Assembly (NCBI GenBank): GCA_004193595.1
Contig: RPGQ01000037.1
Location: 240,827 to 304,826 of the forward strand
Source: Desulfobacteraceae bacterium Eth-SRB2
GTDB lineage: Bacteria; Desulfobacterota; Desulfobacteria; Desulfobacterales; UBA11574
DNA length: 64,000 nt
Reading direction: 5' to 3'
The notes beneath the pieces are model-generated. The model saw nothing but the letters and a program-made list of their open reading frames with translations. It made no database searches and had not been told where the DNA came from. Of this stretch, positions 10,446 to 16,841 are shown piece after piece. The stretch's first letter is position 1. Every line of letters begins with the position of its first letter. Both the position numbers and the translations under genes were made by a program.

Positions 10446-10650
10446 TGGTTGTGCTAGGCGGGGAGCTAGCGGTGCCCTTTTCCCGAAATCCGCTTCATGC
10501 GGGGCTGAATCCCCTCTAAAGGGTTTTAATCTGGGAACCTATAAGTCAATTTGATCGGCCGCCGCGCAACAGACGGTTACGAACCTCGTCAGGTCCGGAA
10601 GGAAGCAGCGATAAGTAATGCAGTCTGTGTCGTGGATCGATCCCGGTCAA
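10446..10650 (+). ncRNA. ffs: Signal recognition particle RNA (4.5S-like)
   Basis: The SRP domain IV core GTCAGGTCCGGAAGGAAGCA occurs at about 10588-10607. It is flanked by complementary stem strands (CGCGCAACAGACGG...AACCTC and the opposite strand through TGCAGTCTGTGTCG), giving the Ffh-binding hairpin. The upstream segment GTGCTAGGCGGGGAGCTAGC to GGTGCCC is a feature I recall preceding the core in the longer SRP RNAs of several phyla. The exact 5' end is therefore uncertain, and the core from about 10545 is the safe part. AT-rich promoter-like sequence (TTGAAT at 10411, TATATT near 10432) lies just upstream. The RNA joins Ffh for co-translational membrane targeting. Confidence 0.85.
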
Positions 10651-10720
10651 GCTTTTGGCTTATTTCATTTCAGAGAAGATTCGATAGAGGGTGCACAACC
10701 AATTCTTCCACTTATAGCAA

Positions 10721-15136: not shown

Positions 15137-15165
15137 TTGACAGGCTTTTTGAAATTGTTTAGAAA
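15137..15165 (+). promoter_or_regulatory. Promoter of the cobalamin-riboswitch transcript
   Basis: TTGACA at 15137-15142 and TAGAAA at 15160-15165 with a 17-nt spacer place a start site just before the riboswitch body. The same -35, spacer length and -10 occur in front of dsrC. Confidence 0.65.
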
Positions 15166-15171
15166 AATTAC

Positions 15172-15328
15172 AAAGGTGCCTTTACGGCTTAATAGGGAAT
15201 TCCGTGAGAATCGGGAGCGGTCCCGCCGCTGTGACCGGCGACGAAATCTGCGATATGCCACTGTTTGGTTTTAACCGTACGGGAAGGCGCAGAGATTAGG
15301 ATGAACCGGGAGTCAGAAGACCTGCCTT
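15172..15328 (+). promoter_or_regulatory. Cobalamin (B12) riboswitch
   Basis: The landmarks of the class occur in order: AAAGGTGCC, TTAATAGGGAA, CGGGAGCGGTCCCGCCGCTG with TGACCGG, GGGAAGGC, GATGAACCGGGAGTCAGAAG and ACCTGCC. The GCCGCTGTGACCGG segment is the B12 box. It is followed by an intrinsic terminator and then by an 86-residue ORF. The expected mode is therefore premature transcription termination when cobalamin is bound. No recognisable cobalamin synthesis or transport gene lies downstream. Confidence 0.93.
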
Positions 15329-15400
15329 ATTAATAACTGTGTCTCTGCGGTGTTACAGAGCGTTATGGTTACATAAAAAAGGGTCAAGTAAGCTGGGTGC

Positions 15401-15438
15401 AGCCCTTCAATCTTTAAAAGGATTGAAGGGCTTTTTTA
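15401..15438 (+). terminator. Riboswitch expression-platform terminator
   Basis: A perfect 12-bp stem, AGCCCTTCAATC / GATTGAAGGGCT, with an 8-nt loop is followed by TTTTTATTT. It lies 72 nt after the riboswitch and 61 nt before the next start codon, so it is the likely ligand-controlled attenuator. Confidence 0.88.
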
Positions 15439-15498
15439 TTTGGGCGTGCTTACGCATCCCGGGCGGGGCTTAATATGTTATGAAAGGAGGTGAAAAAA

Positions 15499-15759
15499 AT
15501 GAAATCAGGACTAATTATTTATGTTGTTGGAAAAGAACCGGCGAATTGGGATGCAGATTTTGGAAAAAAAATAATAAAACAAAACATTCCGGCAGATCTT
15601 GTCGAGATAATTACAACTCAAACCGGTCATTTTGACGTGATCGATGCCTGGTGTTCCTTAATGATCAGGGGTATGAAACAAATTACCTGTATGATCGGAG
15701 AGTTTACACCAAAGGGCACGTTGGCTCTTACAGGTCGAGAGCTCCGCCTGTGCGGATAG
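15499..15759 (+). CDS. Riboswitch-controlled small protein, 86 aa, unknown
   Basis: The ORF is preceded by an excellent ribosome-binding site (AAGGAGGTG, 15484-15492) with 6-8 nt spacing to this ATG. A GTG three codons earlier lies inside that site and is unlikely to be used. The product (MKSGLIIYVVGKEPANWDA... ending TGRELRLCG) has no signal peptide or transmembrane segment and looks like a small alpha/beta protein with three Cys. I do not recognise the family. Being the only gene behind a cobalamin riboswitch with its own terminator, it is probably made when B12 is scarce; a role in cobalamin or corrinoid physiology is inference. Confidence 0.7.
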   Translation: MKSGLIIYVVGKEPANWDADFGKKIIKQNIPADLVEIITTQTGHFDVIDAWCSLMIRGMKQITCMIGEFTPKGTLALTGRELRLCG

Positions 15760-16028: not shown

Positions 16029-16841
16029 CTATGGGATGTCATACAGCTCAGGTCGTCTGTTCGGGATAAAGTATCGCATCCTGTGACTTCGAACCCGGTT
16101 CAGGTCTTCGGCCTTGAGGTTTGCTAATAACAACCCTTCTTTGCCGCTTAAATCCTTGTGAATAACTTCGCCGGATGGCCCGATGATCATGGCGATACCC
16201 GGAAAGCTGAGCCCTTTTTTATTTTCACCTGTCTGGTTGCATGCGATAATAAACAGGCTGTTATCAAAGGCCCTTGCAGGCAAATGACGCATCCATGATC
16301 GGTATTTTTCTTCAGGAGTTCCTCTCGGAGATGCATGAGGGATGAAGATAATATCAGCCCCTTTTAGGACCATTCGGGTGGAAAGCTCGGGGAAGTGGGC
16401 ATCGTAACAAAGCTGGATGCCAAAATTTACGCCCGCTGCATGGAACAGAGGGATTTTGTTGCCGGGTGTTAAAACGGTACGTTCCGGAGGAGAGATGTGT
16501 AGCTTTCGGTAGACGCCTACAAACCCGTCAGGTTTTATTACCAGATGACTTGCAAATAACCGGCCCTTTTCATCCCTTTCAGCCATGCCTGCCAGGATGA
16601 CAATCTTTTCAGATTGAGCCAAATTTAAAAGATATCGACTTGCCGGCCCGGGAATGGGTTCTGCAGCCAAATTAATATCCTGGTGATTACTATAACCCGA
16701 GATATTCATTTCAGGGAAACAAACCATAGCGGCGCCTTGATTTTTCGACGACTTGATCCATTTGACCATCCTGTTGAGATTGTTGCTGATCTTGTTTACC
16801 GGTGAATTAGAAACAACGACGGCTATGCGGATATCTTTCAT
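16029..16841 (-). CDS. Carbon-nitrogen hydrolase (nitrilase superfamily)
   Basis: The 270-residue hydrolase has the Glu-Lys-Cys triad in context: FPEMNISGY (Glu), YRKLHISPPE (Lys) and QLCYDAHFPE (Cys). A late PSGEVI and RPELYD C-terminus fit the aliphatic amidase / omega-amidase / carbamoylputrescine amidase branch. The substrate cannot be decided from the sequence. No signal peptide is seen, so it is cytoplasmic. It converges on the B12-controlled ORF, and 441 nt holding two palindromic elements separate it from the next gene upstream. Confidence 0.88.
   Translation of the reverse strand: MKDIRIAVVVSNSPVNKISNNLNRMVKWIKSSKNQGAAMVCFPEMNISGYSNHQDINLAAEPIPGPASRYLLNLAQSEKIVILAGMAERDEKGRLFASHLVIKPDGFVGVYRKLHISPPERTVLTPGNKIPLFHAAGVNFGIQLCYDAHFPELSTRMVLKGADIIFIPHASPRGTPEEKYRSWMRHLPARAFDNSLFIIACNQTGENKKGLSFPGIAMIIGPSGEVIHKDLSGKEGLLLANLKAEDLNRVRSHRMRYFIPNRRPELYDIP

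Follow-up and report, generated by a model that had tools for sequence, protein, structure and literature searches.

A protein of 86 residues, encoded directly behind a cobalamin riboswitch in Desulfobacteraceae bacterium Eth-SRB2, belongs to an undescribed protein family of the Desulfobacterota that is linked to B12 riboswitches. The sequence profile of the family resembles that of the small class II chelatases CbiX-small and CfbA over about half of their domain, and the residues corresponding to the catalytic histidines are not conserved. We tentatively propose a non-catalytic role in the acquisition or handover of corrinoids.

A single-gene unit behind a B12 riboswitch

The locus lies in a 64,000-nucleotide stretch (hereafter, the window) of a 5.26 Mb draft genome, and comprises the following elements:

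15137–15165, plus strand: sigma-70-type promoter TTGACA-17-TAGAAA, read by eye from the sequence; TTGACA is kept in congeners
15157–15343, plus strand: cobalamin (B12) riboswitch aptamer, Rfam RF00174, full length
15401–15432, plus strand: intrinsic terminator (attenuator) of 14 pairs with a loop of 4, then a T tail
15484–15492, plus strand: ribosome-binding site AAGGAGGTG, read by eye and kept in congeners
15499–15759, plus strand: 86-residue protein of the new family behind B12 riboswitches, a putative CbiX/CfbA-like half-domain without the catalytic histidines

The aptamer matches RF00174 at 112.3 bits (E 2.6e-27), against a curated covariance-model cut-off of 31.5. The promoter boxes occupy 15137–15142 (TTGACA) and 15160–15165 (TAGAAA), and the start codon is the ATG at 15499, downstream of the strong ribosome-binding site. 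Although the promoter is absent from the output of a stricter consensus scan, TTGACA is invariant across six congeneric loci; the aptamer, terminator, ribosome-binding site and ORF start are likewise kept in all six, and the DNA further upstream of the promoter diverges among them. The original prediction of a promoter, a full B12 riboswitch, a strong ribosome-binding site and an 86-residue ORF is thereby borne out. The terminator that it described as a perfect 12-bp element is also present, with the 12 perfect pairs forming the core of the longer, 14-pair hairpin. The downstream neighbour gene (16029–16841) is convergent with the 86-codon ORF, and the riboswitch unit is therefore a single gene, as had been claimed. 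Among relatives, the dN/dS of the ORF is 0.08–0.36, demonstrating that it is selected as a protein; the nearest named records hold a homologue at 73–92% identity. Elsewhere in the window, a large bacterial SRP RNA is found at 10449–10698 on the plus strand (RF01854, 151 bits).

Distribution and riboswitch linkage of the family

The protein had been described as an orphan of no recognised family. While the protein has no match in Pfam, NCBIfam or PDB sequences, the designation as an orphan was mistaken, as the family is widespread: it was found by genome search in 34 of 96 relatives, in 51 of the 291 genomes of the class (leaving 240 without the gene), and in 30 of 297 genomes sampled across the phylum, where about two of the weakest matches are doubtful. 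A plasmid collection yielded no match to the family. Identity across the family ranges from 40 to 90%. Fifteen positions are invariant in the 30 closest members, among them a GM turn and the positions of the motif G-H-F-x-x-x-D-A-W, and almost every one of these proteins terminates in RLCG or a close variant; the GHFD..DAW motif and the C-terminal RLCG are the most conserved motifs of the family. A divergent paralogue at 27% identity is present in the same genome (L049:9890–10177, contig C40); it lacks the GHFD..DAW motif and stands alone behind its own B12 riboswitch, convergent with a btuF-btuD-btuC-cbiK operon.

For the linkage analysis, 65 loci were fetched, and 63 were assessable after leaving out L031, which is cut by a contig end, and L087 (E 6e-4), judged a false hit because it falls inside a 347-residue ORF of MtnA-type appearance by eye and has no riboswitch. 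A B12 riboswitch is located on the same strand within 1.2 kb upstream in 60 of these 63 homologues. The distance is at most 600 nt in 51 of the 63, with a median spacing of 166 nt, and 780–1190 nt in nine; a gene intervenes in seven of these nine, read by eye as cbiK in six, and the intervening gene of L088 appears by eye to be uroporphyrinogen-methyltransferase-like. The remaining three homologues are consistent with riboswitch linkage: porin and cbiK genes stand between the riboswitch and the family gene in L038, a TonB receptor gene does so in L060, and L061 possesses a sub-threshold riboswitch match (15.2 bits) together with a terminator. Cobalamin riboswitches occur in 278 of the 291 genomes of the class and are thus nearly universal, so that the linkage of the family is a matter of position and not of mere co-occurrence. 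A strong terminator separates the aptamer from the gene in 44 of the 51 close loci, as compared to 0.6% of shuffled spacers; transcription attenuation is therefore expected, with abundant B12 switching the gene off. The original prediction had asked whether homologues lack B12 riboswitches, and the opposite was found. Its proposal of an undescribed component of corrinoid handling is supported by this linkage and by the corrinoid uptake and salvage neighbours of many homologues; within such handling, the protein might serve as a carrier, a salvage factor or a regulator.

Several further arrangements around cobalamin riboswitches were observed. Tandem riboswitches precede one transcription unit at L049:15686–15874 and 16124–16328 (minus strand), and also in L099, L113 and L117. 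In one genome, an AraC-type regulator (L063:1804–2139, minus strand) separates the family gene from its B12 riboswitch. A Phenol_MetA_deg protein (outer-membrane type, PF13557; L051:4550–5560, minus strand) has a cobalamin riboswitch upstream of it on contig C72. A DUF6125 protein (Pfam PF19620; L053:8320–8865, minus strand), about 0.5 kb downstream of the riboswitch at L053:9334–9520 (minus strand) in the same genome, is possibly another, so far unassigned member of the B12 regulon. The riboswitch at G000:C18:70652–70856 (minus strand, L052) has no obvious B12 gene near it; at a distance of about 0.8 kb, the closest ORF detected on this strand shows a weak reprolysin-like match.

Similarity to small class II chelatases

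A profile of 42 family members was compared using hhalign to a CbiX profile built from nine sequences of the phylum. The two aligned with a probability of 70% (P 4e-5, score 30.5) over residues 1–66, co-linearly and with a Met-to-Met start. Restricting the family profile to its more divergent members, half of the set, raised the score against CbiX (33.7, probability 82%); overall, the family–CbiX matches ranged from 70 to 82% (P 4e-5 to 1e-5), with local alignments of 66–72 columns. By comparison, the maximum score of 45 control families against the family profile was 20.95 and that of 200 column shuffles 17.6, while the reversed profile scored 8.9. The positive control, CbiX compared with the CbiK profile, returned 96%. 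The CbiK profile gave no signal with the family profile, nor did a profile match emerge for BtuF, BtuC, BtuD, CbiL, CbiA, CbiD or BtuB, and the Pfam CbiX model hit none of the 30 family members scanned. Two other candidates were set aside. A likeness to CbiC, which scored 23.7 once and 14.7 with another reference row of the same cluster, was taken as noise; kinship to the B12-binding domain (PF02310) was rejected given a profile score of 11.1, no better than typical for column-shuffled profiles scored against CbiX (mean 10.8), and no Pfam hit.

Two AlphaFold models, built from eight similar sequences and of moderate confidence (pLDDT 77 and 73), both predicted the same order of elements: strand 1, an uncertain helix, strand 2, a helix at residues 47–56, and strands at 61–69 and 75–81. 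Foldseek searches with both models returned no significant match. At these non-significant E values (0.57 or worse for CfbA), the sirohydrochlorin nickelochelatase CfbA was among the best matches of both models and SirB among those of the second, with Foldseek probabilities of 0.2–0.6 that were the highest or near-highest and a TM of about 0.5. What the family shares with CbiX-small/CfbA (PF01903) would be a co-linear β-α-β-α-β half-domain extending from Met1 to around residue 66, with a glycine after strand 1. With 86 residues, as against 120–145 in a complete CbiX/CfbA domain, the C-terminal third is missing.

In CbiX-small of A. fulgidus, His10 and His74 carry out metal insertion in an active site that lies between two subunits (PMC7689651); the corresponding histidines of CfbA are His9 and His75 (PMC11301274). 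None of the 42 family members has a histidine at position 10, and position 74, a histidine in four of them, is not conserved. Lacking a counterpart of the metal-binding histidines as well as the C-terminal third, the protein most likely functions non-catalytically. Taken together, the profile comparisons and structural models support, but do not prove, a derivation of the family from the fold of small class II chelatases in which the catalytic histidines were lost; the tetrapyrrole-binding framework may have been retained.

Gene neighbourhoods and alternative explanations

The family gene is solitary in about half of the 41 mapped loci, where context is consequently uninformative about a partner. 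In the others it adjoins cbiK, btuF, btuC, btuD or a TonB receptor gene, and in some cbiA, cbiC or cbiL; neighbours were named by clustering and by-eye reading, with the places of cbiK, cbiC and CbiZ confirmed using Pfam models. One recurring partner falls into a protein cluster in which a periplasmic-binding domain of BtuF type is fused to CbiZ, the adenosylcobinamide amidohydrolase of cobamide salvage. CbiZ itself is mildly enriched among family-positive genomes (26 of 51, versus 81 of 240 negative; P 0.025, uncorrected for relatedness). The BtuF-CbiZ, BtuCD and TonB receptor salvage genes belong to the same B12-riboswitch regulon and often to the same cluster as the family gene; unlike the family, to which they are unrelated in sequence, they encode transport and amidohydrolase proteins. 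Separately, a riboswitch-led cluster at L050:9354–20000 encodes two TonB receptors, a Peripla_BP_2-CbiZ fusion of 707 residues and a CobN/magnesium-chelatase-H-like protein, and is an apparent island of corrinoid salvage and remodelling.

The many solitary loci would suit a small protein that acts in regulation or stress adaptation when the cell is starved of B12, which might modulate a B12-dependent enzyme or importer and whose likeness to chelatases would be incidental; the GHFD..DAW and RLCG motifs, too, are unlike a chelatase active site. We consider this rather unlikely, since the family gene repeatedly adjoins genes for uptake, salvage and chelation, and since the shuffle-controlled profile likeness is specific to CbiX among the families tested.

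One neighbour that invites a partnership is cbiK, which adjoins the family gene in around a dozen mapped loci and in several genomes overlaps it through ATGA stop/start codons. CbiK, including the periplasmic-type CbiK of Desulfovibrio (PF06180), is a class II chelatase of the same superfamily and a frequent neighbour behind the same riboswitch, and the resemblance of the family to half of such a chelatase makes a mixed complex conceivable. The small protein could accordingly be envisaged as an accessory subunit or regulator of this cobaltochelatase, or as its cobalt donor, co-produced when B12 is scarce. The distribution of the family, however, renders this improbable. CbiK is found in 26 of 51 family-positive and 138 of 240 family-negative genomes (P 0.44 across the 291), and CbiC, taken as a marker of corrin ring synthesis, in 26 of 51 and 124 of 240 (P 1.0), both being counts that ignore shared ancestry. 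Presence of the family is thus independent of either protein, and we discarded CbiK partnership as its general function despite the operons that suggest it. Moreover, CbiK and CbiC are both missing from 24 of the 51 family-positive genomes, and ten of those 24 are at least 95% complete; in general, therefore, what the protein does cannot depend on cobalt insertion or on the making of the corrin ring. In addition, the neighbouring CbiK often carries an N-terminal hydrophobic leader, judged by eye, and the 86-residue protein has none.

That the protein is a true small metal chelatase, or binds cobalt, by way of other ligands such as His44, Cys64 and Cys85 is more improbable still: His44 and Cys64 are invariant and Cys85 nearly so in the 30 closer members, but across the 42 diverse members Cys64 is kept in 36, Cys85 in 30, and His44 is not universal; both chelatase histidines are absent, and genomes that produce no corrin retain the gene. 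That the ORF is a leader or non-functional, with the riboswitch serving a distant gene or nothing, is scarcely credible: a solitary unit with a convergent neighbour would fit such a reading, but family-wide conservation, purifying selection and the occurrence of the gene in both operonic and solo loci largely refute it.

A proposed role in corrinoid acquisition

That the family persists in genomes lacking de novo corrin synthesis, together with the evidence on its fold, favours binding or handover during acquisition as its role. The explanation that we consider best, at somewhat less than an even chance, is a non-catalytic tetrapyrrole-fold protein of chelatase descent, produced from a one-gene, B12-repressed unit and acting in corrinoid acquisition or handover. 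When cobalamin is plentiful, the aptamer would bind it and transcription would stop at the attenuator; when cobalamin is scarce, the 86-residue protein would be made. This B12-repressed switching is suggested by the anatomy of the locus and by the known action of attenuator-type B12 riboswitches. The protein is predicted to be cytosolic, as no signal peptide is visible in its sequence, and there it may bind a corrinoid or a related tetrapyrrole, perhaps as a dimer like CfbA. The bound corrinoid could then be held or passed on during B12 acquisition. A more specific scenario, possible but on the unlikely side, is that a catalytically dead, half-size descendant of an ancestral cobaltochelatase has been re-used for the dedicated task of carrying corrinoids or handing them over inside the cell, with induction through its own riboswitch when B12 is scarce and retention even in salvage-only bacteria.

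Discussion

In published accounts of delta-proteobacterial B12 regulons, to the extent drawn on here, cbiK-cbiL and btuCDF operons are placed behind B12 elements (Rodionov 2004, PMC545781; Sun 2013, PMC3766115), and these are operons of the kind in which the family gene sits. The passages of both accounts considered here make no mention of the small protein, and B12 regulons are described in the latter as comprising transport, synthesis and isozyme genes (PMC3766115). We regard the finding as a previously undescribed family within an established regulon, probably descended from a familiar fold whose function has changed. Unlike CbiX-small/CfbA, the family is encoded downstream of B12 riboswitches, including those of genomes that do not synthesise corrin; from CbiK it differs in its independent distribution and in the lack of detectable profile similarity.

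To our knowledge, the intracellular handling of imported corrinoids in bacteria is poorly understood. Being small and apparently soluble, the family protein should lend itself readily to binding tests. A conserved small protein tied to riboswitches across a phylum, with or without corrin synthesis, offers a concrete missing piece; were it truly a pseudo-chelatase, it would also reveal a hitherto unseen outcome in the evolution of that ancestral fold.
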